From: a virus
Length of the DNA: 22,918 bases
Reading direction: 5' to 3' (one strand)
Virus record (IMG/VR): IMGVR_UViG_3300009085_000090
Location: 1 to 22,918 of that record
The translations under genes were made by a program, and so were the position numbers. Shown here in pieces: positions 1 through 21,606 of this stretch. The stretch's first letter is position 1. The number at the start of each line of letters is the position of its first letter. The notes beneath the pieces are model-generated. The model made no database searches, was not told where the DNA came from, and worked only from the letters and a program-made list of their open reading frames with translations.

Positions 1-2
1 AA

Positions 3-1039: not shown

Positions 1040-1040
1040 A

Positions 1041-4298: not shown

Positions 4299-4312
4299 AG
4301 CTGGATCCTCCT

Positions 4313-5311: not shown

Positions 5312-5324
5312 ATAAAGAACCTCC

Positions 5325-5942
5325 TCAAGTCGGCCAGTTTTTGATCGTTATGTCGATCCCCGCTCCGATCGGGGCTTGCTCGACAAGGATCCGCCGCTCA
5401 TGGGGCGCGATCGCGACGTCGAGCTCGACCTCGATAAAGCCGGGAGCGGGTCGGGTTATCAGCGGATCAGCCCCGAAAGCCTTGTTTATAAACGTCCAGA
5501 TCGCCGGGATCGAAGTGTTGCCCGCGACGGCGATCACTTTCGCCCGGAGATACGATCGGTAGGTCTCGTCGTCGACGAGCTCCCCGGACGAAACCCCCGC
5601 GATCGTCTCGAAATGTCCCCCGGTCCCCGGAGCCGAAAGAGCGCCAAAGCCTTTGAGAGGATCCCCTGGATCGGTCAATTTCCTGTAAGCGAAAGTCGTC
5701 TCCGCGGGGATCAGTTTCGCGGGCCTCGGATAGATCCCGATAATGTTTCCGATCTGGTCAAGCCAGACCCCGATCGCGGTGTCGAGCCATCGCGAAAAAG
5801 CGAGAGCGTATAGCATCGCGTCGGAGTCCTCAAAGCGGGCCTCGATCGCCGCGAGTAGTTTCGGGATCGTAAAGCCGATCGCCTCCTCCCGCTTAAATTG
5901 GCGGAGGAGCCCGTCAAGAGCGGTGTCGAGTCTAGATCCCAT
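5325..5942 (-). CDS. DUF2612-family baseplate/tail protein
   Basis: A 205-residue protein with the features of DUF2612: an N-terminal helical region (LDGLLRQFKREE...LLAAIEARFEDSDAMLYAL), a WLDTAIGVWLDQIGNIIGIYPRP segment, and a short C-terminal beta domain ending in IDITIKNWPT. Proteins of this family follow the gpJ-like gene in many myophages and are thought to link baseplate wedges to tail fibres. I take the ATG at 5942, overlapping the upstream gene by 11 bases. A TTG eight codons upstream (5966) is also in frame and cannot be excluded. The next gene downstream is the fibre, supporting an adaptor role. Confidence 0.75.
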   Translation of the reverse strand: MGSRLDTALDGLLRQFKREEAIGFTIPKLLAAIEARFEDSDAMLYALAFSRWLDTAIGVWLDQIGNIIGIYPRPAKLIPAETTFAYRKLTDPGDPLKGFGALSAPGTGGHFETIAGVSSGELVDDETYRSYLRAKVIAVAGNTSIPAIWTFINKAFGADPLITRPAPGFIEVELDVAIAPHERRILVEQAPIGAGIDITIKNWPT

Positions 5943-7092
5943 TGATCTGTATCCTGCTCGCGTCAAAGACCCCTATATGATTGACCGCGGTCAAGAGGTC
6001 GCTTTCCGAGGCGGGATTCGGGGCCGTCCCGAGAAAAAGATCCGAAATCGTATGTCCGGGGGTCTCATTCGCGGGAGAGTAAAGCCGCGACTGGACGATC
6101 GCGTCTCCGATCGAAAAAGTCTCAGTCCCGTAGGCTACGATCGCCGCCTTGATCGTCGCGTCCCCGTTGCCCGGATATTTCGTATTTTTTAGCATATTGA
6201 TCGAGATATAGATCGGGTCTTGGATCGGTCGCTCAAACGGGATCGCGTATGTTCGCCCGGTGATCGGGTCGTCATAGTTGACCGAGGTCGATCCATACAG
6301 CCCGACGCCCCCGTCGACCGTTCCAAAGAGCGCCGCGGCGATCTCCTCGTCGGCTCCGCCCTCGACAATCGCCCAAATCGAATGACCGGGGACGCCATTT
6401 AAATCGATAAGATCTGTCTTATTCTCGAAAACGCGGCACGCAATAACCCCGTCAATATTCGCGATCGCGGTATAGATCGCCGCGACATTAGCAGATCCGG
6501 ACCCTTTCGCCGCGGTTGTTCTCCGCGTCCGGAGCGTCGGATCCTGCTCTCGGTCTTGTCCGGGGATCGCGTCGGTTGGATTGGTTACGCTCGCGAGACC
6601 ATAAACCGGGTTGACTATTTTCGTGATCGTCCCCGCCGCCGCTGCAATCGGTCCGAAATTGATCGCGGTCGCGGTCTCGGTTTTCGATTCGAGCGGAGCG
6701 AGAACGACCTCCGCGTCGAGGGCGAAGTTTTCCCCGACCGCGGGATCGCAAAACAGAGACCCGATCGGAACAGTCGATCCCGCTGCATTGGCGGTTAAAG
6801 TAACGTCGACAACACTCGCGACCCGCTTTTTCCGCTCGATCCCATTAAACGCGACGAGTTTCGAGAGATAGACCCCCGCCGCTCCGGTCGGGTCAAAGGC
6901 ATTTACAACGCCCTCGACAAGCTCATTTTGATCCGCGACCGTTTCGGAGATTAAAGCTGTCACTTGACCCCCGACCGAGCCCGGGGTCGTCTTGAAACCC
7001 GACCCGGCGATCGATTTGAAAGCCGCCTCCAATTTCGCGAAAATGTCGGCATATCGATCGAGGATCAATCCGTTTTCGTTAAACTCGCTCAT
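5932..7092 (-). CDS. Baseplate J-like wedge protein
   Basis: A 386-residue protein of the baseplate J (gpJ/gp6) family. The N-terminal part (TPGSVGGQVTALISETVADQ, residues 36-55, then GVYLSKLVAFNGIERK) and the following beta domain (ASVVDVTLTANAAGSTVPIGS) are typical of the family, in which about 350-400 residues is the usual length. It should form the ring of wedge arms around the baseplate hub together with the gp25-like protein encoded immediately upstream (4-base overlap). The gene order gp25-like, gpJ-like, DUF2612, fibre is the standard order. Confidence 0.9.
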   Translation of the reverse strand: MSEFNENGLILDRYADIFAKLEAAFKSIAGSGFKTTPGSVGGQVTALISETVADQNELVEGVVNAFDPTGAAGVYLSKLVAFNGIERKKRVASVVDVTLTANAAGSTVPIGSLFCDPAVGENFALDAEVVLAPLESKTETATAINFGPIAAAAGTITKIVNPVYGLASVTNPTDAIPGQDREQDPTLRTRRTTAAKGSGSANVAAIYTAIANIDGVIACRVFENKTDLIDLNGVPGHSIWAIVEGGADEEIAAALFGTVDGGVGLYGSTSVNYDDPITGRTYAIPFERPIQDPIYISINMLKNTKYPGNGDATIKAAIVAYGTETFSIGDAIVQSRLYSPANETPGHTISDLFLGTAPNPASESDLLTAVNHIGVFDASRIQINGI

Positions 7093-7448
7093 GGTGTAAC
7101 TATCTCCCCGGAGATTATACCGTAGATCGTTGTAGCGGTATAGGTGATCAGGGCCCCCCGATTGATTGGATCAACGGCAAACTGAAACGCGAGCAGACCC
7201 GAGACGCCCTCGACCCCGAGGATCGTCGACCGGATCGCCGCCTCTTTTTGCTCCAGGCTGGTTTGAGTCGAGAACATAGTCCCGAGCCAATCGAGCCCCC
7301 GGGCCGGGTCAAATTTCCATTCCCCGAACAAAAAACGCAGGGCGATCTTGACCGCTTGAGCGACCTCCTCCGCGTCGGAAATAAAAACGAAATCATTGTC
7401 GACGATTCGCAGGGCGTCGTTTTCATCTAGTGCGAAATCGGTCCCCAT
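7089..7448 (-). CDS. gp25/gpW-like baseplate wedge protein
   Basis: A 119-residue protein of the gp25-like or DUF2634-like kind. Visible are the N-terminal acidic beta hairpin (ALDENDALRIVDNDFVFI), the helix EEVAQAVKIALRFLFGEW, and the FDPARGLDW loop, equivalent to the conserved GEW..D...G stretch. In contractile tails this protein bridges sheath and wedge and helps trigger contraction. Its ATG shares one base with the preceding stop (TAATG), and it overlaps the gpJ-like gene by 4 bases, consistent with equal translation of partners. Confidence 0.82.
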   Translation of the reverse strand: MGTDFALDENDALRIVDNDFVFISDAEEVAQAVKIALRFLFGEWKFDPARGLDWLGTMFSTQTSLEQKEAAIRSTILGVEGVSGLLAFQFAVDPINRGALITYTATTIYGIISGEIVTP

Positions 7449-7828
7449 TAATTTGCCTTTACTTTCGTTTGTCCCGCGTCGGATACCTCGACCGGGCCCG
7501 AAACCGCGACCGTCGCGGGCGGCGGAGTCGGGTTTGTTCCTTGGGCGTTCATGGTTACAAAATCCCCAACCCGGACGGGGGGAGAGCCCTCGGTTTTACC
7601 CTTGATCGCAGTCGCGGGGATCTTCGTCGGCGCAACCGAGACAACCGTCCCCGGAACGCAACCCGGAGCGGAGCCGCCCGAAAAAGTAAACTCGACCTCT
7701 TTCGGAAAGACGCCCAAGCCGACCGCTTTGTCTTTGACCGAGGGGATCGAGGTTATGACAAAAGCTCCCCCGGTTATGGGGCCGCTTTTGTGTGCTATCG
7801 TCCCGCCCGCGTTCATCACGTCTTTCAT
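7448..7828 (-). CDS. PAAR-like spike-tip candidate
   Basis: A 126-residue protein located directly after the spike gene. It is Gly/Pro/Val/Thr-rich and beta-rich with little helix. The first part (MNAGGTIAHKSGPITGG) and the segments SAPGCVPGTVVSV and SPPVRVGDFVTMNAQ resemble the short beta hairpins and GD turns of PAAR-like tip proteins. A clear PAAR zinc site is not visible (one His and one Cys only). The position between spike and gp25-like genes supports a membrane-piercing tip or a structural cap. It could instead be another baseplate protein of unknown fold. Confidence 0.5.
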   Translation of the reverse strand: MKDVMNAGGTIAHKSGPITGGAFVITSIPSVKDKAVGLGVFPKEVEFTFSGGSAPGCVPGTVVSVAPTKIPATAIKGKTEGSPPVRVGDFVTMNAQGTNPTPPPATVAVSGPVEVSDAGQTKVKAN

Positions 7829-8397
7829 GGATCCACCGTCCAGTTATTATTGATATTAACTTGACCCGTCGATCCATTCAATTCAAAAAAGCCCGCGGGG
7901 TTTTCGCCCCGGATCGTCCCGTCATCCTTAACCCGAAAAAAGACGGTTCCGTCTCGCTTTCGGAGCGTGATCGATTTCGGCTCGACGCCCGGAGAAACAG
8001 GATCGGCAAAAGAGAACAGCCCCGAGATCGCGATCGCGTCGGAGAGATCAAAGGCTCGCGAGCTCCCGGGGTCGACGAGGCCACCGGACGAGAGCCATTT
8101 TTCGATCGACCGCTCGGAGCATATCAAAAGGACATAAGAATCGACCGCGACGTCGACCTCGACAATCATGTCCCCGCCGCCCAAAAAGACGATCGGGACG
8201 TCCTCACAAATCGGGAGGAGGACCGGGGCGTCGGAGCCCTCAAAGAGCCGCTTAAGCACAGGTTGGGCGGAGATCGTTCTCCGGTCCCCGTCAAAGGCTG
8301 TCACTTGGGCGATCATGGCGGTATGGATACCGCGGATCAGCCCGTCGAAAATCATCCCGAGAGCGACGTCGAGGCCCATTTTATCCCGTTCGGTCAT
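7825..8397 (-). CDS. Baseplate central spike protein (Gp138 N-terminal domain type)
   Basis: A 190-residue protein. After an N-terminal helix (MGLDVALGMIFDGLIRGIHTAM), residues 27-100 look like the Gp138 N-terminal OB-type domain: MIAQVTAFDGDRRTISAQP, then LLPICEDVPIVFLGGGDM and a YVLLICSERSIEKWLSSG stretch. The C-terminal part (SITLRKRDGTVFFRVKDDG, then NGSTGQVNINNNW) is a repetitive beta segment of the kind that forms a trimeric beta-helical spike. It lies between the hub and the tip candidate, with 4-base overlaps on both sides. It should form the needle that punctures the outer membrane on contraction. Confidence 0.82.
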   Translation of the reverse strand: MTERDKMGLDVALGMIFDGLIRGIHTAMIAQVTAFDGDRRTISAQPVLKRLFEGSDAPVLLPICEDVPIVFLGGGDMIVEVDVAVDSYVLLICSERSIEKWLSSGGLVDPGSSRAFDLSDAIAISGLFSFADPVSPGVEPKSITLRKRDGTVFFRVKDDGTIRGENPAGFFELNGSTGQVNINNNWTVDP

Positions 8398-9260
8398 TTC
8401 GTTTTAGAGCTCCATAGATCCGACTCGGTCAAGGTGTCAAAGGCCCCGCCATGATTCGATCCGGTATGCTGTACTCGATCGACAATATAGATCCCCGCCG
8501 CGTCGAGCTTGGGCGGCTTTTTAGTGTCCTCGGAAAAATTGAGAACCGTCGATCGCGGCTTAACCTGGATCAGCCTTGCGGGGCGGATCTCCGGATTCAA
8601 GAAACTCCGGGTCTTGATCCCGGTGTCGGTCAAGACCGGGGACTCGATCAAACCAGTATCAGAGCTCAAGACGACCGCGGTCGAGCTCTTGATCGGCGGT
8701 TGACCCGCGACAATGATCTCGATCGTACCGTGTTGAATCGACCACGAAAGCCCAAAATCCCGGGTTACTTTGTCGAGACAATCTTTGACCCGGCCCGAGA
8801 AGCTCGCCCCCGAGGTCAAGGTCGCGGAGACGGTCGCGGAGTCGACCTCGCTCGGGAGCCCGAGGGCAAGCGCCATATCGTTTAAGATTTGAGAGATCGG
8901 AGTCCCCGCGGCATACGCTTTATTGAAAATCTTTGTCGAGAATTCTTTTTGACCGTCCCCCGCAAAAATGGCGGTCGAGACTTCATAGGCTCCGATCGTA
9001 TGGAGGGGGCGGATCATGGTCCCCCGGAAAATCAAAACGGGCTTTGACTGATAACCCGCGAGAAACTCGATCCCCTGGTATGACTCCGAAATGAGTCCGC
9101 GGGTTGTTCTGCTTAGATTGTAGACCGTGATCTTCGCTTGGTTTGGTTTCGAGTCGCGGGAGAGAGCGACGTCAAAATCCATATCGAGATCGCGGATTGT
9201 AAAGCGTTTCCCGCCCGCGAAAATCCGGAGCTCGGTCGCTCGGTCGAATAGGATCCCCAT
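8394..9260 (-). CDS. Baseplate hub protein (gp27/gpD-like)
   Basis: A 288-residue protein. The start MGILFDRATELRIF, the early beta strands (ALSRDSKPNQAKITVYNLS) and the middle segment (GTPISQILNDMALALGL, then DCLDKVTRDFGLSWSI) match hub proteins of simple-baseplate myophages, where tube-like domains form the ring between tail tube and spike. The late motif GIYIVDRVQHTGSNHGGAFDT is typical of gp44/gp27-like hubs. It lies between the plug and spike genes, the expected place, and shares ATG/stop bases with both neighbours. Confidence 0.82.
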   Translation of the reverse strand: MGILFDRATELRIFAGGKRFTIRDLDMDFDVALSRDSKPNQAKITVYNLSRTTRGLISESYQGIEFLAGYQSKPVLIFRGTMIRPLHTIGAYEVSTAIFAGDGQKEFSTKIFNKAYAAGTPISQILNDMALALGLPSEVDSATVSATLTSGASFSGRVKDCLDKVTRDFGLSWSIQHGTIEIIVAGQPPIKSSTAVVLSSDTGLIESPVLTDTGIKTRSFLNPEIRPARLIQVKPRSTVLNFSEDTKKPPKLDAAGIYIVDRVQHTGSNHGGAFDTLTESDLWSSKTK

Positions 9261-9580
9261 TATGATCCCCGCGTAACATAGAGCAACTTAAACCGATCCC
9301 CGTATTGGTCGAGATTTGCATCGATCGGCTCCTCCTCGAAATCCGCGATCCAAAGCTCCCCGAGCTCCTCGAAACCATGAGCCGCGAGCAGATCAAAACC
9401 GGAAACCAATTTGATCCCGTAAAGAGCGAGGTCGACCGAGATCCCGACGATGTCCAGAAACCAAGCCTGATCGGTTTCGTTCCATCGGGATCGCAAGCTG
9501 TAGACGTTGCCGTCGAGCTCGATCGAGAATGTCGCGTCGACCGTATTCGAGACGGGGATCTCTTGGATCTCTTGTGTCAT
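9260..9580 (-). CDS. Baseplate plug protein (Pam3 gp18-like)
   Basis: A 106-residue beta-rich protein. The pattern FSIELDGNVYSLRSRWNETD, then WFLDIVGISVDLALYGIKLV and LGELWI, is that of the plug family (Pam3 gp18-like) found in small myophage baseplates. These proteins sit in the tube channel next to the hub. It is placed between the Dit-like and hub genes as in that family, with a 4-base overlap upstream and a TAATG junction downstream. Confidence 0.8.
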   Translation of the reverse strand: MTQEIQEIPVSNTVDATFSIELDGNVYSLRSRWNETDQAWFLDIVGISVDLALYGIKLVSGFDLLAAHGFEELGELWIADFEEEPIDANLDQYGDRFKLLYVTRGS

Positions 9581-10239
9581 ACCCCGACCATTTTCCCGAG
9601 TTTCGAGAGGACCGACTCCGATTTCGCGGGCGCGGTCTCGGTCGATTTCGTCCCCTCATTTTGCGTTTTCGAGTCCTTATTTTTTGCTTTTTGCGTTTTC
9701 TTCTTTTTCTCTTTGTCTTGCGGTATGTCCTCCGGAGCGACGGTCGCGATCTCCGAGGCTACCGTCTTGATCTGCTCAAGAGAGATCCGAAAAAAAAGAG
9801 CGTTGGAGGTCGAGGCTTTGCGATCGATTGCAAGGCTTGTAATCATCAAATCTGGATAGGTATCAAGCGGAGTCGTAACCGTGATCTTTTTGTTCTCCCG
9901 GTCGAGGCGGAGGAGCTCCGAGTATTTTTCGCGCCAGGACGACGAGATCCATTTTCCCGACTTGATCGCTGCGACCGTTGCCGAAAGCATAGCGATCGCG
10001 TCTTGGGGTGGATCCGTGAAAATACATTCTAGATCGACCCCGATCGGGCGAGCGACCCGAGAGTCCGCGGCGTCAAAGCCTGCCTCGACGGGCCGCTTTG
10101 TTATGTCATGGGCATAGACCGGAGACTCGGAGACGAGAACGTCGATCGGGATCTCCCCGAGCAGATTCGGAACCGACCCGAAAAGGTCTTTTAATAGATC
10201 CCGGTTAGTGATCAGATTGGATAGAGCCGCGACTCCCAT
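9577..10239 (-). CDS. Dit-like tail/baseplate protein with charged C-terminal tail
   Basis: A 220-residue protein. Residues 25-75 (LGEIPIDVLVSESPVYAHDI, then RPVEAGFDAADSRVARPIGVDLECIF) are the pattern of Dit-like N-terminal domains, and residues about 90-165 complete a compact domain. The last 50 residues are low-complexity and rich in Lys, Gln, Thr and Glu (DKEKKKKTQKAKNKDSKTQ), ending in a short hydrophobic patch (SVLSKLGKMVGV). Many relatives carry a LysM-like domain at the C-terminus; none is visible here. It probably joins the distal tube end to the hub. The charged tail may be a flexible anchor. Confidence 0.72.
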   Translation of the reverse strand: MGVAALSNLITNRDLLKDLFGSVPNLLGEIPIDVLVSESPVYAHDITKRPVEAGFDAADSRVARPIGVDLECIFTDPPQDAIAMLSATVAAIKSGKWISSSWREKYSELLRLDRENKKITVTTPLDTYPDLMITSLAIDRKASTSNALFFRISLEQIKTVASEIATVAPEDIPQDKEKKKKTQKAKNKDSKTQNEGTKSTETAPAKSESVLSKLGKMVGV

Positions 10240-11990
10240 TAGTAAGACACTCCCGAGGCGTTGTTTCGGGCCGCGATTGCGGCTTTTTCCTCCAAGATCC
10301 CCGCGACTCGATTCGCAAAATCCGCCCCGCTCTCTCCGGGCGATTGCGTCACTGATATTTTGTTCTCGACTTTGACGCTCGAATTATTCGCGACCGAGCC
10401 CCCTCCCGGGGTCGGAGGGGCTCCGAAAGCTCCTCCGGGCCCATAGGTCAAGGGGGTTTGATACGCGGGCGGGGCGAGCTCTGCGTCCCCTTGAAAGAGA
10501 CGCCCGATCACAGGGATGTTTTGAAGCCCGAGCTTGAAGTCCGCGATCCCGCCCCGAATGACGTCCCCGATTTTGTTCCAGATACCCACGATCCAATTAT
10601 AAACCCCGACAAAGCCCGAGACAACCTGATCAAACCAACCCGAGATCGCCTCCCAAGCCAATCCGAAAGCCTCCGCGATCAAGGCGGGAAGGTTGGTAAA
10701 ATTCCCCCAAAACTCGGTTAACCAGTCGGTCATGGCGATCAGGGCTTGATCGAGATCCTCTTTCGAGACGCCCAACCATTCCGCCCATTGTGCGATCGCC
10801 GCGGCGATATATTCCTCCGCGACCGCGAGAACCTCCGGCCAAAACAGTTTGAATTTTTCGAGGAGCCGCCCGATCAGCGATTCGCCCCCGGTAAAAAACT
10901 GATAAAGATCCTCCGCAATCAAGCCGATCGCAACCGCCGCGAGCAGGATCAGAGCAGGCCAAAAAGCCGCGGCGATATTAAAGGCAATTTGCGCCGCGGT
11001 TGCAGCCCGGATCACTATGATAAAATTCCGGAGCCATATCAAAAACTGTAGGGCTTGCCATGCAAGAAACGTAAAGACGACGAGCCGCGCCGCCGACTCC
11101 AAGCCCCCGAGGGCGTTGATAACTTTGTATAGGATTGAAACAATTTTGACTAGGTAGTCATAGAGCCGCTTGACTATGTCGACCGCGTCTTTAACCCACT
11201 TTTTGAGCTCGGTTTTAATCAACGTCTTATTGAGAGCGACCCACTTCACAAGCCTTTGAATGAGCGGGGCGAGAGCCTTTCCCGCAAGGCCCGAAAATTG
11301 GGCGGTTATGGATCCGAGAACCGAGTTAAACTGACCGAGGGCTCGCGAGTATTCGAGCGCCCCCGCTTGACCCTCCTCGTCCAAAAAGGTTAGCTCTTTT
11401 TTCTTCTGGATCATTTCCGCGAGGCTCATGTTTTGAGACCGGAGAAACCCGACGATCCGCCCGGACTGCTCCCCAAGTAGACCTTGAGCCGCCGAAACCG
11501 CGGTTTGTTGGTCCTCAAGGCCCCGGGCCGCGTCCAGAACCGCGACAAATTGATCCTCGGGGGTCAAGTCCTTTAACTTTTTCCAATCGAGCCCGAGGGC
11601 TTTGAGAGAGTCCCGCACGGGGGCGAGATTGCCGTCCCGCTTAAACGCTCCGAGGCGGGCGTTTAACTGCTTCATAGGGTCGAGAGCCGCCTCCGCCCCG
11701 AGTCCTAATTGATTTGTGATCGAGGCCATGGCCTCGAAACCGGCATATGAGATCCCCGAGGCTTTCGCGAGATTCGCATTGGTTGAGGTCTGCTTATTGG
11801 TAACAGTGATCAGAGCCGCGAGAGAGCTCGCGAAACCCGCGGCAATCGTCGCGGCTTTGGCGAAATTGACCCCGATCTCTTTGATCCCCTTGTGGAGATC
11901 CTCGACTTGCTTGTCGAATTTCGCGAGGTTGGAGGAGTCGACCTCCCAACCGAGAAACGCGGTAAACTCCTCTATATATTTCGCGGTCAT
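10239..11990 (-). CDS. Tail tape measure protein
   Basis: A 583-residue protein placed between the tail chaperone frameshift pair and the baseplate genes. Evidence includes a helical N-terminus (DSSNLAKFDKQVEDLHKGI), long Ala/Leu-rich helices, strongly hydrophobic membrane-capable segments at about residues 303-360, and a C-terminus typical of tape measures (NNSSVKVENKISVTQSPG, then ADFANRVAGILEEK). It sets tail length and may pass through the host membrane during DNA entry. With the usual rule of about 1.5 angstrom per residue, the tail would be roughly 85-90 nm long, short for a myophage; that estimate is inference. No peptidase or transglycosylase domain is visible. Confidence 0.93.
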   Translation of the reverse strand: MTAKYIEEFTAFLGWEVDSSNLAKFDKQVEDLHKGIKEIGVNFAKAATIAAGFASSLAALITVTNKQTSTNANLAKASGISYAGFEAMASITNQLGLGAEAALDPMKQLNARLGAFKRDGNLAPVRDSLKALGLDWKKLKDLTPEDQFVAVLDAARGLEDQQTAVSAAQGLLGEQSGRIVGFLRSQNMSLAEMIQKKKELTFLDEEGQAGALEYSRALGQFNSVLGSITAQFSGLAGKALAPLIQRLVKWVALNKTLIKTELKKWVKDAVDIVKRLYDYLVKIVSILYKVINALGGLESAARLVVFTFLAWQALQFLIWLRNFIIVIRAATAAQIAFNIAAAFWPALILLAAVAIGLIAEDLYQFFTGGESLIGRLLEKFKLFWPEVLAVAEEYIAAAIAQWAEWLGVSKEDLDQALIAMTDWLTEFWGNFTNLPALIAEAFGLAWEAISGWFDQVVSGFVGVYNWIVGIWNKIGDVIRGGIADFKLGLQNIPVIGRLFQGDAELAPPAYQTPLTYGPGGAFGAPPTPGGGSVANNSSVKVENKISVTQSPGESGADFANRVAGILEEKAAIAARNNASGVSY

Positions 11991-12612
11991 GGTCTTTTCA
12001 CTTTCGCCGCCTCTTGATCCGCGATCTGTTTCTCCGCGTCAAGACCGAGGAGCATAAACTCTTGTCGGTCTAAAAAATCCCGGTTTGTCCAGTTTTCAAC
12101 CTCCTCGGGACTAACCCGAAACCATCTCGCGACTTGATAGGTTTCTATCTGCCCGGGGTCGAGACTGTTTTTCCGCTCGACGACGCGGGTTTTATTAGGT
12201 CCGGGGGAACGAAACCGGCAAGGCTCCCCCGGACCTTTGAAAAAACCTTCGGCCAATTTTCCAAGACCGCGTACACAGTCGCGATATAGAGCTCCTCGGG
12301 TCGCGTCTCGAAATAGTCGGTTGTATCAAGCGGCCCGAGCTCGGTCCCGTCGACTATCGCGTTTCGGAGGAGCGTCGAGGCCAACGTCCAAAACCGATCG
12401 AAGTCCAGGGCTTTTACTGCGTCGAGGATCGCCGCGACCCGGTCCTCCTCTTTCGATTCGGAGACCCGGGCGATCGCCTCGACGACGACCCCCAAGACCC
12501 CATGAAAGACCCGGGCCGCTTCTTTGCGCTTGAGAGCGACAAAGTTATATTTTTTGACGCCCTCAAGCGTTTTAACGTCGACGACTAGGTCGATTTGTTC
12601 GGTCTGTTTCAT
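11987..12612 (-). CDS. Tail assembly chaperone, long form (gpGT-like) made by -1 frameshift
   Basis: The -1 frame, open down to 11987, overlaps the end of the short form and has no good start or ribosome-binding site of its own (its first in-frame start-like codon is a TTG at 12256). If ribosomes slip after Phe124 (TTT at 12243-12241), the fused protein has 208 residues: 124 shared plus 84 in the new frame. That extension contains VARWFRVSPEEVENWTNRDF and RQEFMLLGLDAEKQIADQE, resembling the T part of gpGT-like chaperones. Its stop overlaps the tape measure start by 4 bases. In the family the G and GT forms bind the tape measure and recruit tube subunits in a set ratio. Confidence 0.82.
12145..12612 (-). 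CDS. Tail assembly chaperone, short form (gpG-like)
   Basis: A 155-residue, mostly helical protein between tube and tape measure, the standard place for the tail assembly chaperone. It starts with a beta segment (QIDLVVDVKTLEGVKKYNF) and then helices (EAARVFHGVLGVVVEAI, DFDRFWTLASTLLRNAI). It shares its 5' part with a longer -1 frameshift product: a T6 slip run falls at codons 123-125 and a perfect 12-bp stem follows. Read in frame, the last 30 residues after the slip site are Pro/Ser/Lys-rich and unfolded-looking, as in other gpG-like proteins. Confidence 0.85.
   Translation of the reverse strand: MKQTEQIDLVVDVKTLEGVKKYNFVALKRKEAARVFHGVLGVVVEAIARVSESKEEDRVAAILDAVKALDFDRFWTLASTLLRNAIVDGTELGPLDTTDYFETRPEELYIATVYAVLENWPKVFSKVRGSLAGFVPPDLIKPASSSGKTVSTPGR
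12197..12247 (-). promoter_or_regulatory. Programmed -1 ribosomal frameshift signal (slip run plus stem-loop)
   Basis: On the coding strand the run GGTTTTTTC (12247-12239) is read as GTT TTT TCA. Three bases beyond the run, AGGTCCGGGGGA (12236-12225) pairs perfectly with TCCCCCGGACCT (12208-12197) across a 16-base loop. Slippery run plus strong downstream hairpin, inside the overlap of two tail-chaperone frames, is the classic arrangement. The slip site is not the textbook GGGAAAG; the P-site Phe codon re-pairs exactly on the T run. The 3-4 base spacer is shorter than the usual 5-8. Confidence 0.8.
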
Positions 12613-12630
12613 AGCCCGCCCCTATCTCGA

Positions 12631-13050
12631 TCAGGTTTCGATCGCTCCCGCGTGCTTGATCGCGCCCTTGATAAAGTTGAATTTCCACTCGGGCTCGACC
12701 GCCTCTTTCCCGCGGATCCAGTCCGGGGACTTCGCTACAACGCAAGACGCGGCGAAAAAGCCCGCCCCGTCGGAGGTCTTGTCGACGATCGTGATCGCGA
12801 CCTCGGAGCCCGCGTCGTCGAGGACTTGAAAGGCGGCGTTTGTCGGGGAATAGTCCGCGAGCTTGAAAGCGCAAACCCCGGAGAGATTCGCCCCCTGTAT
12901 ATGCCGCCCCTCTCCGCTGGATCCTATATGCATGGTCCGCCGATCTTCGGAGTAGGCAATATTGATCATTTCGCCGTCCGCGAAACCCCGGACGACGATC
13001 GCCCCGACGGTCATAATAACTTTTTTCGGATCGTAGGTTAAAAACCCCAT
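12631..13050 (-). CDS. Tail tube protein (DUF3277-like)
   Basis: A 139-residue beta-rich protein. The start LTYDPKKVIMTVGAIVVRGFADGEMI, followed by a YSEDRR segment, then ANLSGVCAFKLADYSPTN and a late SPDWIRGKE stretch, follow the DUF3277 pattern, the tube protein that accompanies DUF3383 sheaths. It is encoded directly after the sheath (15-base gap) with an ideal AGGAGG (13062-13057) before the ATG, consistent with high expression. It should polymerise into the inner tube through which DNA passes. Confidence 0.88.
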   Translation of the reverse strand: MGFLTYDPKKVIMTVGAIVVRGFADGEMINIAYSEDRRTMHIGSSGEGRHIQGANLSGVCAFKLADYSPTNAAFQVLDDAGSEVAITIVDKTSDGAGFFAASCVVAKSPDWIRGKEAVEPEWKFNFIKGAIKHAGAIET

Positions 13051-13065
13051 TGGAAAGCCTCCTCT

Positions 13066-14496
13066 TTAGATCGCCCACGTTCCAACGATTTGATAATCGT
13101 TGATCGCGCTGTTTATGTAACCCTTGAAAACGTCGTATTGGGTCAACTTGTGAGACTGTCGTTCCTCCGCGGTTATGTCGTCCGCGTCGGGGAGGTTGAC
13201 CGTAAAGGGCCGATCCGGTGTGTTGACAAGGATCCGCCGCGTGATCGCTTGCTCGCCCCTCGTCCGGATAAAACCCTCGATCTTGGTCAAGGTTTCATTG
13301 TCAAAGGCGTTCAAAGGCGAATTGAGTTGATCGGTAAAAATGTCCTCCATGATCCGCGAGACAAACCAGTCCCGCCCGAGCATGATCCGCTTTTCCTCTC
13401 CCCCGAAAGTGATCCCGTCATAGAGGTAGGTTTCCCCGACGGTCTCGATCCAGTTCCAACCTTTCGCTTTGAGGGCGATCCGCTCCGAGGTCGTCAAGGG
13501 CTTATCGAGGCCCGAGTCGGTTACAAGGGCGAGCACTTCATAAGCGAAAGAGGTCGTCCCCTCTTGAGCGGGGAGGACGCAACCCCCGACCGCTGCGTCC
13601 GGATACTGATCCGGATGTTCGGTATAGATCCCAAGCGTCCGCTTGGTCGAGAGGGCTTTCAACCTGGATCCGACGTCGGTATCGTCCGCCGGATCTTTCG
13701 CCGCCGCGTCGGAGCCGACGAGGTCGAAAAGCTTGTCTTGGCTTTCGACATAGCTCGCGATCGCTACCTGCTGATCGTCGCTCGCGCCCCGCTCTTGGAT
13801 ATTGTAAAAGGTGTCGTCGATCTCGCGAATCGCCTGGATCGCGTCGACCGGCTCCTCGACGTCGAGACCGCCCCGGGTCTTTCCGTTGCTCGCGTCGAAA
13901 ACGCCCTCGGAAATATCGTCGGGCCCCTCGGTTGTCGTGATCGTGATCAGCGGGGCCGCGGATCCGGTTGTTTTCATTTCGAGGACGAGCCGCCCGATCG
14001 AGTCGACCCGGAATTCCGCGTTTTCGAGCCCGACGACGTCCGGGGTCACAAGCGCCCCTAAAGCGTCATTCAAAAGCTGGATGATCTGCTCCCATGAAGT
14101 GATCGCGGAAAAGTCGAGCCCCGCGACGTCGGTCTCGTTCGCCTCGGAATCGACGACTCGAAACTCCCCCGCCACAACCAGCTTGAGGGCGTCGACGTCT
14201 TTCGAGTATCCGGAGCCGCAAGCGAAAAAAGGCGAGGTCGCGGCGGAGATCCACCGCCCGACCATGAGCTTTTCCGCGATCCGCTTTTGCGAAAAGTAGA
14301 CGAGCGAATACTCGCCCGGGACGCTCTCGTCGTCGAAATCGGTCGCGAAACTGGCCTCGGTTGTGTACCGAAAGCGCGAGTCGGGCGGGATCTGGACGTC
14401 GTCCACTAGAAACAGCCCGACCCCAAAACTCGCCCGGGGGACTTTCGCGGTCAGTAAGATCGCTTGAATGTCGACATGGTCTTTGATAATTGCCAT
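13066..14496 (-). CDS. Contractile tail sheath protein (DUF3383-like)
   Basis: A 476-residue protein and one of the longest in the operon. It begins MAIIKDHVDIQAILLTAKVP, fitting the DUF3383 sheath family, and continues with FGVGLFLVDD. A late helical region (MLGRDWFVSRIMEDIFTDQL) and the C-terminal VFKGYINSAINDY are as in other sheaths. It forms the outer contractile tube and shows that the phage is a myovirus. GGAGGG lies seven bases before the ATG. A self-complementary GCCCCGCGGGGC lies just upstream of this site. The next gene encodes the matching tube protein. Confidence 0.9.
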   Translation of the reverse strand: MAIIKDHVDIQAILLTAKVPRASFGVGLFLVDDVQIPPDSRFRYTTEASFATDFDDESVPGEYSLVYFSQKRIAEKLMVGRWISAATSPFFACGSGYSKDVDALKLVVAGEFRVVDSEANETDVAGLDFSAITSWEQIIQLLNDALGALVTPDVVGLENAEFRVDSIGRLVLEMKTTGSAAPLITITTTEGPDDISEGVFDASNGKTRGGLDVEEPVDAIQAIREIDDTFYNIQERGASDDQQVAIASYVESQDKLFDLVGSDAAAKDPADDTDVGSRLKALSTKRTLGIYTEHPDQYPDAAVGGCVLPAQEGTTSFAYEVLALVTDSGLDKPLTTSERIALKAKGWNWIETVGETYLYDGITFGGEEKRIMLGRDWFVSRIMEDIFTDQLNSPLNAFDNETLTKIEGFIRTRGEQAITRRILVNTPDRPFTVNLPDADDITAEERQSHKLTQYDVFKGYINSAINDYQIVGTWAI

Positions 14497-14515
14497 TTTT
14501 TAACCCTCCGCTTTC

Positions 14516-14533
14516 GCCCCGCGGGGCTTTTTT
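14516..14533 (+). terminator. Short GC palindrome followed by T6, antisense to the late operon
   Basis: GCCCCGCGGGGC at 14516-14527 is followed on the + strand by six T (14528-14533). This is the form of a weak intrinsic terminator, but only in the direction opposite to the late genes. The stem is short: four to five pairs once a loop is allowed. In late mRNA the same hairpin sits between the neck gene and the sheath ribosome-binding site. It may stop antisense transcripts or shield the mRNA; function is unproven. Confidence 0.3.
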
Positions 14534-15046
14534 CTAATGCTCAAAAAGGTTTTGAGTCTCCTCGTCCTTCATCCCGAGGACGTATTCGAGGATCTTCTCG
14601 ACCGTCTCCGAAACCTCACTAAACCATAATAGATCAAAATCGGCTTGGAATCGAGGACGAAATGAAACGTCCCCGAGCTCGGTCAAATCGCGGGCAGTCC
14701 CCCCGCCCTTGAGCGACATACCGCTCGCTCGGAGCTTGAGCCGCGGGGCGCGGAGATAGGTCGATTGATTCAGCCGGGCGAGTATCTCCTCCCCCCCGTC
14801 CGCGTAAACGTCGATCCCGATCGTGATCGTTGCCCGGTTGAAATATTGCTTTTTAACGAGGTCCGGATCGAGCCCCGGGGCTTGACTCCGGACCGAGGTC
14901 GAAAAATCTCCGGGGACGAGGGCGGTCAAGCCATAAGTGATAAAGGGGCGAGCCGGTCGCGGTCCGTTTTGGCGCTCCTCGATCACTTTCGCAGCGTCGA
15001 AACCCGTCGACGCTACAATCCAATCGTAGATCGCCCCGTTATTCAT
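14534..15046 (-). CDS. Neck/tail terminator protein (gp12-like)
   Basis: A 170-residue protein directly before the sheath gene. Features are a helical start (MNNGAIYDWIVASTGFDAAKVI), the PARPFITYGLTALVPGDFS region, and beta segments with a central NRATITIGIDVYADGGEE. This layout fits the neck terminator family (gp12-like, LIC_12616 family) found in this position in simple myophages. It caps the tail tube and joins it to the neck. It overlaps the upstream gene by 8 bases. Confidence 0.72.
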   Translation of the reverse strand: MNNGAIYDWIVASTGFDAAKVIEERQNGPRPARPFITYGLTALVPGDFSTSVRSQAPGLDPDLVKKQYFNRATITIGIDVYADGGEEILARLNQSTYLRAPRLKLRASGMSLKGGGTARDLTELGDVSFRPRFQADFDLLWFSEVSETVEKILEYVLGMKDEETQNLFEH

Positions 15047-15389
15047 CGCTCATAACCTCGCGGAGATAGGCTTTTCGATATTCTCCGAGAACGGTCCGAT
15101 CTTCGATCTGTACGATCTGATAAGTCTTTCCCGCGACGACGAGGCGGTCGGAATCGATCCCGCCTTGTCGCGTGTCGAAAGCCGCGGTCGACCAAGTCTT
15201 TTGATAGTTGCGAACATGCTCCCCGTCCGGTAGCATTTGAAGCTCCCGAGCGGTAACAGGTTGGAGGGCGATCACGCGGATCGCGGAGCTTGTCGCAGTC
15301 CCCGGGGCCCATTGTCCCGAGCTATAGGATCCCGCCGCTCTCCGGTATAGAGTCGCGTCGACGAGCTCGTCCCCGAAAAACTCAAGCAT
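15039..15389 (-). CDS. Head-tail connector / head closure-like protein
   Basis: A 116-residue protein located among connector genes. I recognise no exact family. The sequence is beta-rich with short turns (DATLYRRAAGSYSSGQWAPG, then SDRLVVAGKTYQIVQIED), resembling small head-closure or stopper proteins, with a charged C-terminus (YRKAYLREVMSDE). It overlaps both neighbours by 8 bases. A role between portal and tail is inferred from gene order, which places a stopper here. Confidence 0.55.
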   Translation of the reverse strand: MLEFFGDELVDATLYRRAAGSYSSGQWAPGTATSSAIRVIALQPVTARELQMLPDGEHVRNYQKTWSTAAFDTRQGGIDSDRLVVAGKTYQIVQIEDRTVLGEYRKAYLREVMSDE

Positions 15390-15852
15390 GATCGACTCCG
15401 ATCCAGGCGATATGTTGCCGGAGTTGACCCGAATCGATTAAGGGGTGCGTCTTTGGGGCCTTTTTCGCGAGCGTACTCGGAGCATTGGGCGGATCCTTAG
15501 TCGCGGTGATCTGTGCTTGTACGTCGGTTTGAGCCTGGATCCCAAGGACCGAGATCGCCGCGTCGGTTGTCATTTGTCCCGATAGGATCGCCCGGATCAG
15601 TTTCTTCTCAAGCGTGAGATATTTCGCTTTGTTTGCTCTCATAGCAACCCGGAGAAACGGGCGAGCAGGGATCCGCCCGTCGCTCGTCCCGAATTCATTC
15701 CAATAAGCAATTTCAGAGATCAAAACGTCGGGGCTGTTAGGGTGCGTCCCCGTCCCGAGCAGGATCCCGACCTTGATCCCCCCGTCTTTGAGCGACCGCT
15801 TGAGGAGGTCAACCCCTCCGCCGCGGGTCTTGCGCTTGAGTCCCGACGTCAT
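15382..15852 (-). CDS. HK97 gp10-like neck / tail-completion protein
   Basis: A 156-residue protein with the family pattern: an early beta strand (GIKVGILLGTG), an EIAYWNEFGTSDGRIPARPFLR segment (residues 46-67), a central helix (GIQAQTDVQAQI) and a late KTHPLIDSGQLRQHIAW stretch. These proteins (HK97 gp10 or Mu gpG-like tail completion) join head and tail. The order DUF4054, connector, gp10-like, neck terminator, sheath is common for this phage type. It overlaps the upstream gene by 4 bases. Confidence 0.82.
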   Translation of the reverse strand: MTSGLKRKTRGGGVDLLKRSLKDGGIKVGILLGTGTHPNSPDVLISEIAYWNEFGTSDGRIPARPFLRVAMRANKAKYLTLEKKLIRAILSGQMTTDAAISVLGIQAQTDVQAQITATKDPPNAPSTLAKKAPKTHPLIDSGQLRQHIAWIGVDHA

Positions 15853-16217
15853 ACGACAACCGCCCCGATCCCGATCAACGACATGAGCCGCAAGTATTCT
15901 TGACCGTAGGGGCTCGCCTTGTAATAGTCATCGGAGAGCCCGGAGACCGTCCCCGAGGCGCTCCCGAAAGAGACCGAGACGTCTCCTATAGATCGAGACG
16001 AAACCGGGCCCAAAGAGCCAAGAGCGCCCCCGGACGCGGCGGTCTTTTTCGAGATTGCCAGGAAATGAGCCGCGAGAGCCGCGACCCCGCGATCGTACCA
16101 AGTCCCCCAACGGTCCGGATCGATTTCGAGCTCCGCGTCCGCTATGAAAAAAGAGACGCGGGCGTCCGCGATCGTCGAAAATTCCGGATACCGGGTTTTA
16201 AAAGTCGTCGGGGTCAC
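15849..16217 (-). CDS. DUF4054-like head-tail connector
   Basis: A 122-residue protein. I choose the GTG at 16217: GGAGGCGGAGGG lies just before it, and family members begin with a TFKTRYPEF-type stretch, as here. The frame is open farther upstream to about 16370, but there it only re-reads the repeat tail of the previous gene as a Ser/Pro/Arg string. The pattern FKTRYPEFSTIADARVSFF, then AHFLAISKK, then SVSFG and a late ASPYGQEYLRLMSL is that of DUF4054 adaptor proteins. It overlaps the upstream gene by 20 bases. Confidence 0.82.
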   Translation of the reverse strand: MTPTTFKTRYPEFSTIADARVSFFIADAELEIDPDRWGTWYDRGVAALAAHFLAISKKTAASGGALGSLGPVSSRSIGDVSVSFGSASGTVSGLSDDYYKASPYGQEYLRLMSLIGIGAVVV

Positions 16218-16572
16218 TGTCGGAGCCCTCCGCCTCCGCCTCGGGCTCCCGCCCGGGCTCGGGCTTGGTCTTGGTCTTGGTCTTGGTCTTTGGTTTCCGC
16301 TTGTGCTTTGGCGCGGGCTCGGGCTCGGGCTCGGGCTTCTCGGGCTCCCCGGGCTCCTCGGGCTCCTCAATTACAAATTCGAGCTCCCCCCGGTTCTCAA
16401 GCTCTTTTACCCAATCCGACGCCCGGATCGCGTCGACGTCCTCGGTCGAGAGCCCGAGTTTCCCCGCGAGGTTGGCTCCCGGGACAATCATCGCCTTAAT
16501 CCGCCGCTTGTCACGGTATGCCGACAAGTAGAGAAGCCGCGGGGCTCGATTCAAGATCATGGAATAGGCCAC
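16198..16572 (-). CDS. Small head-region protein with Pro/Glu and Lys/Thr repeat tail
   Basis: A 124-residue protein starting at a GTG (16572) with GAGGAGG seven bases upstream. The N-terminal half holds RRIKAMIVPGANLAGKLGL and a DWVKELENRGELEFV helix, resembling small phage proteins of the VPG.N/LEV kind found between capsid and connector genes. From residue 68 it is low-complexity: Pro-Glu repeats, then a Lys-Thr block (KPKTKTKTKTKPEP), then an acidic end (EAEAEGSDSDPDDF). Such a bipolar tail may be unstructured and bind by charge. Function unknown. The repeats are encoded by hexamer copies and may vary in length between relatives. Confidence 0.7.
   Translation of the reverse strand: MAYSMILNRAPRLLYLSAYRDKRRIKAMIVPGANLAGKLGLSTEDVDAIRASDWVKELENRGELEFVIEEPEEPGEPEKPEPEPEPAPKHKRKPKTKTKTKTKPEPGREPEAEAEGSDSDPDDF
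16265..16338. repeat. Hexamer repeats encoding the Lys-Thr and Pro-Glu tails
   Basis: On the + strand TTGGTC is repeated a little over four times at 16265-16290, and CGGGCT-type hexamers are repeated at about 16315-16336. Shorter CTCGGG copies follow to about 16366. All keep the reading frame of the - strand gene (Lys-Thr and Pro-Glu). Such short repeats tend to expand or shrink by slippage in whole codon pairs. Confidence 0.8.
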
Positions 16573-16588
16573 CGGAAAACCTCCTCGA

Positions 16589-17524
16589 TCAGATCTTTTC
16601 CATGATCGCGAGAGAGAGCGGGTAATAGATATTCAACCCGCCAAACCGCGCCTTGACCGGGATCACGTATTCGAGCCCCTGGATCTGCTCGGGGAGAAAG
16701 ATCACTTCTTGCGGGATCTCCAATTCGAGCTTTTCGGGGCTCTTGTCGTAGACGATCATAATGTCGTCCCCCGGGGTCGTCCCCGCTCCGAGAAGCTCAT
16801 TGATCGGAATGATCGAATCGAGCGACCGGATAAAGGGCGAATTCATGGTGACGTATTTTGCGATCGTGGTATCCGACTGGATCGACCGGGGCGTCGACAT
16901 GATCAGCGTCCATTGGGCAACCGGCAAAAGTAGCGTGTTCGGGCGCTCTTTCTGCTTGGTAGCCTCGAAAATCGCGTTGCAGGCCCCGTTTATGTCCGCG
17001 AGGATCTCGTCGGGGGTCTTGGTCGACCATTCCGTCCCCGATCCCGGGTTGGGGGCGTCTCCCCTCGGAATATTGATGTTGTTGAGCAGACCCGGGAGCC
17101 CGTTGTCCGCGTCCCCAAACCACGCTATGCGGTTCATGGTTTCTTCAATCGCTCGCCTCGCGACAACCGCTTTCCGCTGTGAAAGGGGCATCCCGACCAT
17201 ACGGGCGCTCTCGATCTCGTCGACCGAGTACCCGAAAGCGTCCGCGACCGTCCGGACCGGGGTCGAGACCTCTTTCCCCGCTATGTCGACGCGGGGGAGG
17301 TCTTTCGCGTAGGCGTTTATGATCGCCGCCATGCCGGATCGGTCATAGGACTGATAGACGATCGAGGTTGCGCCCGGGGGCGTCGAGGTGTTGACCGGAA
17401 AGCACGCCCGATACATGAGATCCGCGTATTGGACATCATAGGTTTTGGCTTTGAGGGCCTCAAGCTGGCGGGCAAAGAAGATCGAGCCGTCCGCGTCGAG
17501 CAGTTTCACGTTTTGATTTTCCAT
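16589..17524 (-). CDS. Major capsid protein (DUF2184-like)
   Basis: A 311-residue protein of the DUF2184 capsid type (HK97 fold expected). Visible landmarks are FFARQLEALKAKTYDVQYADL at the N-terminus (long N-arm), RACFPVNTSTPPGATSIVYQSYDRSG, VRTVADAFGYSVDEIESARM, the RRAIEETMNRIAWFGD helix, and a late PVKARFGGLNIYYPLSLAIM strand, all usual for the family. A strong AGGAGG precedes the ATG, and the cement protein gene lies just upstream. It builds the icosahedral shell; no cleavage site is obvious, so the protease probably acts mainly on the scaffold. Confidence 0.92.
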   Translation of the reverse strand: MENQNVKLLDADGSIFFARQLEALKAKTYDVQYADLMYRACFPVNTSTPPGATSIVYQSYDRSGMAAIINAYAKDLPRVDIAGKEVSTPVRTVADAFGYSVDEIESARMVGMPLSQRKAVVARRAIEETMNRIAWFGDADNGLPGLLNNINIPRGDAPNPGSGTEWSTKTPDEILADINGACNAIFEATKQKERPNTLLLPVAQWTLIMSTPRSIQSDTTIAKYVTMNSPFIRSLDSIIPINELLGAGTTPGDDIMIVYDKSPEKLELEIPQEVIFLPEQIQGLEYVIPVKARFGGLNIYYPLSLAIMEKI

Positions 17525-17539
17525 TTTCGATCCTCCTCT

Positions 17540-17983
17540 TTACAGCGCCACGCGGATCTTTGCGATCGCGTCCGCTTCGGCTGTCGATTCCAAAACCCCC
17601 GGGAGCTCGGCCTCGCCCTCGCCCGGGGCCCCGATTCCGATCACTCCGGTAGTTGTGTTGTAATTCAATACATCCCCCGGAGAACCGCCAACCGCCACCG
17701 CCGCGTAAATCGATCCACTCTGAAGGATCGCCATTGTTTCGGTCTCCGCGTATTCGATCGCCCCGGTCAATCGCTCGCCCTCGCGGTCGAGGCTCCGCAC
17801 CGTAACCCCGAGCGGAACCGCACCCCCGAGGACGGCTTGATCGTCGTTTGTCCCGCGGGAGACGACAAGGCCAAAGCCGATCGCCCCGCCCTCCGCCGCT
17901 CGCGAGATCGTCCGGGCCGGATTGAGATCCGCGAGCCCTCCCGCGTATCCAATTACCATGTTGGTCTGATAAGTTTCGGTCAT
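17540..17983 (-). CDS. Capsid cement/decoration protein (gp24-like)
   Basis: A 147-residue, Gly/Ala-rich beta protein between the scaffold and capsid genes. The pattern ETYQTNMVIGYAGGLADLNPARTISR, then IGFGLVVSRGTNDDQAVL and a late GSPGDVLNYNTTTGVIG, matches structural cement proteins of the gp24 type. In such phages trimers of this protein sit on the shell and stabilise it after expansion. AGGAGG precedes the ATG. Its partner capsid gene follows after 15 bases. Confidence 0.82.
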   Translation of the reverse strand: MTETYQTNMVIGYAGGLADLNPARTISRAAEGGAIGFGLVVSRGTNDDQAVLGGAVPLGVTVRSLDREGERLTGAIEYAETETMAILQSGSIYAAVAVGGSPGDVLNYNTTTGVIGIGAPGEGEAELPGVLESTAEADAIAKIRVAL

Positions 17984-18004
17984 GTTCGATCCTCCTCTAT
18001 GCCT

Positions 18005-18586
18005 TTAGGCTTTTTTCTTTTTCGACCCGCCACAAAGATCGACGACCTCCGCGGGCTTTTTCCATGCGTTACGATTCCGCTCGATCATGCGGCCCCGAGC
18101 CGCCTCCGCGGTCTCCGGACCCTGCTCGCCCTTGGGCGTCAAAGCGTCCGCGAGCTTGGAGATCGACCCGTCGACCGCTTTCGGCTTGAGCGTGTCGAAA
18201 ACAGCGGAGACATAGATCGGGGACTTGTCGGAGAGATCGAGACCGTCCGCGAATTTCACCGCGACCGCTTTCCGGATCTCGTCGTCGGTTTTGCCGTCGA
18301 CGACAACCTCCGGATCGAGCTTGCGGGCCCGGTCGACGAGAGCCGCCCGAGTCCGGACGCGGGCGTCGATCTGCTCGTCGCTCAAAATCTGCTTCTTGGT
18401 CGCGTCGAGCTCCCCTGTCAACCGCTCAACCGCCGCTTTTGCATCAGTGATCGCGGTCTTTTCCGCGGTCTCGATCGCGGTGATCTTGGTTTCGAGCTCC
18501 TCGATCCGCTTGTTTTGGGCGTCAAAAGCCTCCGCCCCTTGGTCGGAAAGCTCGATCGTTATCCCGTTCAAAGTCCTTTTAATCAT
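18005..18586 (-). CDS. Nested scaffold protein from an internal start
   Basis: Codon 187 of the protease-scaffold gene is an ATG (18586-18584) preceded at a nine-base spacing by GAGGAG, a better ribosome-binding site than that of many first starts here. Starting there gives a 193-residue protein (MIKRTLNGITIELSDQ onward) made of the coiled coil and C-terminal domain without the protease. This mirrors the nested protease/scaffold arrangement of lambda C/Nu3. Expression of the short form is predicted, not shown. Confidence 0.62.
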   Translation of the reverse strand: MIKRTLNGITIELSDQGAEAFDAQNKRIEELETKITAIETAEKTAITDAKAAVERLTGELDATKKQILSDEQIDARVRTRAALVDRARKLDPEVVVDGKTDDEIRKAVAVKFADGLDLSDKSPIYVSAVFDTLKPKAVDGSISKLADALTPKGEQGPETAEAARGRMIERNRNAWKKPAEVVDLCGGSKKKKA

Positions 18587-19144
18587 GGTTTTTTGCTCCT
18601 CGGTTGAATGGTCGTCGAGGCGGACGCCCGATCCGGCCCGCCCTTTTGCCAAAATGGCGATATGATTCCCGCGGATCCTCCGCTGGATCCCGTCGAAAGG
18701 CCCGAATTTCGCGTCAACCCCCGGAGTCCAATCAACGTCGGTCTCGTATCCAAGCGAGACTTGATCGGTCCCCGCCTGGATCGCGTCGATCGCCGCTTTG
18801 TCTTGGATCACTAGGTCCGCGGTTACTTTGTCCCCGTCCCGCCCGATCGTGTCGCGGGAAAATCCGATCTGGTACTTTTTCCAATTGTCCGCGTTTATGA
18901 ATTCCGGGGGGTGATTCCGAGTTATCGGGCGATTCGACAAGGTCGCGAGGCTCTCGGGTTTAAAAACCTCGTCCTCGGGGCGTAACAAGCGGATCACCGG
19001 GGGCGGGTTTACCTCCGCGGGGATTTCGAGCTCTCGGGGCCCGTACTCTTGGATCCCTGCTTTGGCAATTTTCGCGGAGACAAGTAAAAAGCCGTCTTTG
19101 GTAAAGACCCTTTTTGATATTTCGCCCGCGTCTCGAAGTAGCAT
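18005..19144 (-). CDS. DUF2213 prohead protease fused to scaffold
   Basis: A 379-residue protein. Residues 1-180 form a DUF2213 domain, thought to be the prohead protease: RPITRNHPPEF (72-82, His78), QVSLGYETDVDWTPG (128-142, Ser130) and RGNHIAILAKGRAG (158-171, His161) are conserved-type motifs and candidate catalytic residues. Residues 205-260 are a long coiled coil (NKRIEELETKITAIETAEKT onward) as in scaffolding proteins, and the end is basic (CGGSKKKKA). It would guide capsid assembly and then be cleaved. An in-frame ATG with a good ribosome-binding site at 18586 should also produce the scaffold alone. AGGGGAT lies just before the first ATG. The catalytic assignment is inferred. Confidence 0.82.
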   Translation of the reverse strand: MLLRDAGEISKRVFTKDGFLLVSAKIAKAGIQEYGPRELEIPAEVNPPPVIRLLRPEDEVFKPESLATLSNRPITRNHPPEFINADNWKKYQIGFSRDTIGRDGDKVTADLVIQDKAAIDAIQAGTDQVSLGYETDVDWTPGVDAKFGPFDGIQRRIRGNHIAILAKGRAGSGVRLDDHSTEEQKTMIKRTLNGITIELSDQGAEAFDAQNKRIEELETKITAIETAEKTAITDAKAAVERLTGELDATKKQILSDEQIDARVRTRAALVDRARKLDPEVVVDGKTDDEIRKAVAVKFADGLDLSDKSPIYVSAVFDTLKPKAVDGSISKLADALTPKGEQGPETAEAARGRMIERNRNAWKKPAEVVDLCGGSKKKKA

Positions 19145-19211
19145 TTTATCCCCTGATCATTTGTCTAGTGATCATTTTGACCGGGTTTTTTCAGAATTGC
19201 AACCGTTTTTT
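19145..19211 (-). promoter_or_regulatory. AT-rich gap with promoter-like boxes and two TGATCA palindromes
   Basis: This is the longest gap in the late operon (67 bases) and is much more AT-rich than its surroundings. On the coding strand TTGCAA (19202-19197) is followed after 17 bases by CAAAAT (19179-19174), each four of six to sigma-70 consensus. Two TGATCA palindromes (19174-19169 and 19159-19154) lie 15 bases apart between the -10-like box and the gene, like an operator. A 7-base inverted repeat, CCGGGTT...AACCCGG, also spans the gap. A secondary promoter before the scaffold and capsid genes is plausible but unproven. Confidence 0.3.
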
Positions 19212-21595: not shown

Positions 21596-21606
21596 GATCG
21601 ATCCCC

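Follow-up and report, generated by a model that had tools for sequence, protein, structure and literature searches.

A G_GTT_TTT slip site with a conserved downstream hairpin predicts -1 frameshifting in the tail assembly chaperone gene of an uncultured contractile-tailed phage

Introduction

In phage lambda, the tail assembly chaperone is encoded between the tube and tape measure genes, and programmed -1 ribosomal frameshifting (-1 PRF) near the 3′ end of G fuses the T domain to a minority of the products (PMC5009743). Slip sites in which X_XX is G_GU form a recognised intermediate class; cardioviruses rely on such a site and so does T7 gene 10, which is decoded by bacterial ribosomes (PMC5009743, Atkins review). 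Frameshifting on G_GUU_UUU has been confirmed by mass spectrometry in TMEV (cardiovirus 2B*; PMC4524249). A 2025 report on Pseudomonas phage Adele described -1 PRF with a GTTTTT motif that is invariant in 56 Vandenendeviridae chaperone alleles and present in Andersonviridae too, and the available portion of that report mentions no stem for the chaperone signal of either family (PMC12846349). In addition, PRFect reports slip motifs in actinophage chaperones that depart from X_XXY_YYZ, one of them named 'twofive' (PMC10885494), a pattern that, judged from its name, would cover GGTTTTT.

Here, we have analyzed a 22,918-nt virus fragment from IMG/VR (referred to as the window), in which a preliminary description made from the sequence alone had proposed a lambda G/GT-like -1 frameshift. 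Comparison with relatives strongly supports this proposal, and it is very probable that the tail assembly chaperone (TAC) gene of this contractile-tailed phage contains a programmed -1 ribosomal frameshift signal. Both the kind of signal and the slip sequence are already known; the novelty lies in the lineage of the phage, in the conservation of the hairpin and possibly in a trade-off between a weak slip site and a strong stem.

Gene order and reading frames

The minus strand of the window carries a set of head and tail genes: portal, Mu F-like, DUF2213, DUF2184 major capsid, DUF3383 sheath, KPP10-like tube, chaperone, tape measure, Dit-like, hub and baseplate J. The portal gene is preceded by one for a predicted cysteine peptidase of the papain family (C1; 21945-22742, minus strand; PF00112, E 1.8e-5). 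The coordinates of the relevant features are given in Table 1. A TAC homologue, recognised by its phrog_1613 and PF21822 matches and by its neighbours, sits between the tube and tape measure genes. The match of the window protein to PF21822 (Phage_TAC_15) falls below the Pfam cut-off (E 0.0027), and all seven clade members scanned matched this family, with a best E of 5.4e-8.

Table 1. Features of the chaperone locus in the window
Feature	Position	Strand	Remarks
Window	1..22918		22.9-kb IMG/VR virus fragment; head and tail genes on minus strand
Tail tube protein	12631..13050	-	phrog_280 E 2e-25, KPP10_Orf10 E 2e-5; upstream of chaperone
Short form, TAC (lambda gpG-like)	12145..12612	-	155 aa, ATG start; phrog_1613 E 8.4e-7
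Downstream -1 frame, stop to stop	11987..12325	-	overlaps TAC ORF
Slip heptamer G_GTT_TTT	12241..12247	-	zero-frame GTT Val and TTT Phe; direct read
-1 frame portion read after slippage (predicted)	11990..12241	-	84 codons; derived from sequence
Spacer TCAA	12237..12240	-	4 nt to 12-bp stem, 6 nt to conserved core stem
5′ arm of 12-bp stem, AGGTCCGGGGGA	12225..12236	-	conserved core 12234-12225
Loop	12209..12224	-	16 nt, also in L092 and L014; 25 nt in L095 and L096
3′ arm of 12-bp stem, TCCCCCGGACCT	12197..12208	-	pairs perfectly with 5′ arm
Conserved C-terminal T domain of -1 frame	about 12166-11990	-	kept in relatives
Tape measure protein	10239..11990	-	phrog_8125 E 6e-23

The TAC ORF and a -1 ORF overlap exactly where the preliminary description had located a cassette, between tube and tape measure. 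The -1 frame ends in a TGA that shares bases with the tape measure ATG, as ATGA, and it encodes a T domain whose conserved residues in relatives are S-L-x-P-G-Q-x-E-T-Y-Q-V-A ... V-E-N-W-x-N-x-D-F-L-D-R-Q-E. Slippage at the heptamer would give a predicted fusion protein of 124 + 84 = 208 aa with the junction ...PKVF-FKGPGE....

Relatives and conservation of the -1 frame

Direct searches with the window chaperone yielded no relative in phages or viral contigs and no close one in named phages, and searches with the major capsid protein (MCP) or sheath alone yielded only one further contig, from the same or a nearly identical phage and ending before the chaperone. Relatives were reached by MCP alignment and then by two-sequence TAC and T alignments. 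The capsid route gave the Criblamydia plasmid, Chaseviridae, Rhizobium phage I72 and 80 IMG/VR loci. Profile searching for the chaperone collected 58 ORFs initially and finally 72 non-identical loci (loci are designated by L numbers). Members of the clade of the window (L092, L094-L099 and L101-L103, beside L014) were added via T-domain and chaperone alignments. A DNA-pattern scan for the slip site plus the stem start returned 22 stretches, only three of which were chaperone loci as judged from the translations, all of them clade members already found by alignment. In hhalign comparisons between the window clade and the wider family, the chaperone parts matched clearly (probability 97%), and the T domain, which is conserved within the clade, matched its wider-family counterpart with a probability of 11% (E 0.003), a level at which homology is unproven.

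The Criblamydia sequanensis plasmid (L004, NZ_LK031773.1), which may be a phage-plasmid, contains a phage module of the contractile-tail type whose MCP is 48% identical to that of the window; two IMG/VR contigs have chaperone loci near-identical to it and a Rhabdochlamydiaceae MAG is close (L040, L043 and L104). Several public phage and plasmid records lack an annotation for the T part: in L004 (13119-13276), L005 (10522-10708), L006 (14076-14234) and L009 (14122-14298), the T ORF of the -1 frame, which lies between the chaperone and tape measure genes, is unannotated.

Beyond the stop of the short form, the -1 frame stays open for 110-263 nt in 72 of the 72 loci. The -2/+1 frame was rejected as the fusion frame; it closes quickly in most relatives. 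At or near equivalent codons, 55 loci have T_TTT_TTN, seven have G_GTT_TTT and the remainder have other types. A -1-frame stop lies no more than 9 nt upstream of the heptamer in 26 of the 72, which pins the slip to the heptamer; in phage KIL4 (L141) the site pinned in this way is a G_GTT_TTT.

These data also bear on whether the downstream frame is translated separately from a start of its own, giving two proteins without fusion, as has been argued for T4-like phages. A TTG at 12256, upstream of the slip site in the -1 frame and preceded by a weak GGA, could serve such a start. However, a start upstream of the slip site is impossible in 12 relatives, because a -1-frame stop directly abuts their assigned heptamer, and downstream of it 42 of the 72 loci, the window included, have no ATG, GTG or TTG within 35 codons, whereas a start codon with a Shine-Dalgarno-like stretch occurs there in only four. 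The conserved start and ribosome-binding site that the preliminary description had named as evidence against its proposal were thus looked for and are not what the relatives have, and we regard separate translation as very unlikely. The window locus has an overlapping -1 frame with a conserved T domain and no start of its own, and its slip site near the end of G is conserved in relatives.

Four loci (L080, L081, L108 and L098) retain the -1 architecture, but neither a canonical heptamer nor G_GTT_TTT is clearly present where the slip site would be expected; the sequences there include A_GGT_TTA and C_ACT_TTT. In Acinetobacter phage Mithridates (L143), the chaperone gene (6926-7351) has, close to its end, a T_GTT_TTT with an abutting -1-frame TGA, which suggests that slippage may take place at N_GTT_TTT even without the leading G.

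Slip site

Read on the minus strand in the short-form frame, the region is ...GAA AAT TGG CCG AAG GTT TTT TCA AAG GTC CGG GGG, continuing AGC CTT GCC GGT TTC GTT CCC CCG GAC CTA..., with GTT at 12246-12244, TTT at 12243-12241 and TCA at 12240-12238. The T6 run described earlier (GTT TTT TCA) is therefore in the short-form frame at exactly these positions, and it does differ from the standard GGGAAAG, although G_GTT_TTT sites already constitute a recognised slip class. The heptamer departs from canonical X_XXY_YYZ, with a middle mismatch on shifting from GTT to GGT and perfect re-pairing of TTT on TTT alone; as a zero-frame G_GTT_TTT with a covarying stem 6 nt downstream, it has the sequence features of the G_GUU_UUZ class. 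The slip run on its own is uninformative, since the window has 10 copies of GGTTTTT, counting both strands, and 28 runs of six or more T residues. Codon choice (GTT about 24% of Val codons, TTT about 63% of Phe codons) is a weak test, one gene having been counted partly out of frame.

G_GTT_TTT is found at aligned codons in five clade contigs (the window, L014, L092, L095 and L096), in which the preceding codon is AAG or, in L092, TCG, and the following codon is TCA, ACG, TCC or TCG, around a constant GGTTTTT. In the tree of chaperone plus T, these five rows fall in a 10-member group with support 95/97, and the Vandenendeviridae with this heptamer (Adele, KIL4) make up a group of their own; given the well-supported branches, the G_GTT_TTT label must have changed at least twice on the family tree. 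The zero-frame heptamer is confirmed in that group as well (TCG GTT TTT TCT in Adele, TCG GTT TTT CAG in KIL4) and lies at aligned codons in L139 and L141. Among other members of the window clade, L097, L099, L101 and L103 have T_TTT_TTN and L094 has C_CCA_AAG; the three types thus occupy adjacent codons within one clade (L094-L103, codons N-x-P-K-V-F-F).

The same fusion could arise by a single-tRNA slip in the P site on T_TTT, with Ser TCA in the A site, or on another codon pair. The two modes of slippage give an identical junction peptide, and peptide mass therefore cannot separate them. The preliminary description had allowed slippage on the P-site Phe tRNA or on Val/Phe. The latter is favoured by the comparison and the route through the Ser codon is disfavoured, for the A-site codon varies while GGTTTTT does not, and L014, with ACG in place of TCA and a T run of only five, indicates that the Val/Phe pair is the slip site and the Ser codon irrelevant. 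As for another pair, the codons CCA AAG immediately before the site could serve for a C_CCA_AAG slip in L094, L095 and L096, and because L095 and L096 carry this canonical site along with G_GTT_TTT, their slip site is less certain; but C_CCA_AAG is absent from the window and L092, and in L095 and L096 it lies about 12 nt from the stem. Taken together, the single-tRNA and other-pair routes are improbable, if less so than any other alternative considered here, and the Val/Phe slip on G_GTT_TTT is preferred.

Transcriptional slippage on the T6 run, producing mRNAs one base longer or shorter, is a further alternative. The run is present, but six T residues are short for this process, runs of that length are common in the window, L014 has only T5, and a conserved, covarying stem downstream fits ribosomal stimulation. 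We consider this explanation highly improbable.

Downstream hairpin

The perfect 12-bp stem and 16-nt loop that had been noted are exact at 12236-12197, and so is the spacer of 3-4 nt (3 nt if counted from the end of the T run, 4 nt if counted from TTT). No other perfect hairpin in the window has 9 bp or more with a loop no longer than 20 nt, and a first-order Markov model predicts 0.075 perfect stems of at least 12 bp per window. RNAfold extends the stem by one G-U and one C-G pair and gives -29.3 kcal/mol (z -3.6) for the 60 nt after the heptamer, and none of 300 synonymous recodings of the window short frame folded as well. A pseudoknot between the loop GGUUU and a downstream AAACC was dropped, as 4 nt would need to span the 12-bp stem.

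Alignment of relatives, which had been suggested as a check on whether run and stem change together, shows GGTTTTT kept in all five G_GTT_TTT clade members and, exactly 6 nt past the heptamer in each, a stem starting GTCCG or CTCCG. In the common 10-bp helix, 98% of cells are paired across the five aligned sequences, from which the structure was itself derived; double-sided changes that keep pairing are seen in five of the 10 core pairs, and sliding the partner by 1-3 columns lowers pairing to 26-60%. L095 and L096 are closely related to each other, which leaves about four independent sequences in support of the stem. The fraction of synonymous recodings folding as well is at most 1/300 in the window, L092, L095 and L096 and 2.7% in L014, whose stem alone is weak (z -1.3).

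A GC-rich stem-loop between genes of one operon might otherwise be read as a transcription terminator or a chance inverted repeat. Yet no coding-strand T tract follows the stem in any of the five sequences (AATAAAA, GCCCTGG, AAAATG, GATCAG and AAGGAA), and the hairpin lies inside two conserved reading frames, with the low expectation and double-sided changes given above; the probability of either is close to negligible.

Proposed mechanism and significance

Sequence and comparison establish the frames, the slip site, the stem and their conservation, and from these we infer slippage, its efficiency and the roles of its products. Most ribosomes would yield the short chaperone of 155 aa. When GTT is occupied by Val-tRNA and TTT by Phe-tRNA, the hairpin 4-6 nt ahead would resist the ribosome, and a fraction would slip back by one base, Val re-pairing on GGU with a middle mismatch and Phe re-pairing perfectly on UUU. 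The slipped ribosomes would read the T domain to the stop at the tape measure start and produce a G-T fusion of 208 aa as a minor product. If the proteins work as lambda gpG and gpGT do, the short form may coat the tape measure and the T part may recruit tube subunits. The imperfect re-pairing of the P-site Val tRNA at G_GTT_TTT is a point against this scheme.

Clade members with other slip sites fold more weakly downstream (p 0.016 for MFE and p 0.008 for z-score, five against five, uncorrected for kinship). This difference, which is suggestive only, is the basis for a tentative idea that we hold to be somewhat doubtful: as the heptamer turns over between strong and weak types at adjacent codons (C_CCA_AAG, G_GTT_TTT and T_TTT_TTN), the hairpin might change along with it, a strong conserved stem accompanying the weaker G_GTT_TTT and no stem accompanying T_TTT_TTN, and this compensation would hold the G:GT ratio steady. 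The natural variants of the clade could be used to ask if the strengths of slip site and stem are balanced in this way. To the known tail-chaperone frameshifts, the window would add a lineage of uncultured myophages whose -1 slip site is non-canonical and whose covarying hairpin is unusually clear, and G_GTT_TTT is seen in two or more distinct branches of a single family of homologous genes.

Comparison with known systems

The window resembles lambda G/GT in the position of the chaperone and in the overlapping -1 frame, and differs in having G_GTT_TTT instead of G_GGA_AAG (GGGAAAG), a strong 12-bp hairpin and a contractile tail. T7 gene 10 has a slip site of the same G_GU class that is decoded by bacterial ribosomes, but the gene encodes a capsid protein and its stimulator is a long-range CCCC. 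In TMEV, the stem is 14 nt away and frameshifting needs virus infection, whereas the hairpin of the window is 4-6 nt away. The Vandenendeviridae and Andersonviridae share a related DUF3383-sheath myophage module, in which the TAC gene precedes the tape measure gene and the -1 frame has no stop across the locus; the Vandenendeviridae occupy another branch of the TAC tree and do not share the GTCCG stem. Finally, the family with T_TTT_TTN (Chaseviridae, Rhizobium phage I72 and the Criblamydia plasmid) differs in its canonical heptamer and, in many members, in lacking a strong stem, and it has in common with the window a homologous TAC, the aligned codons N-x-x-x-[VF]-F and the -1 architecture.
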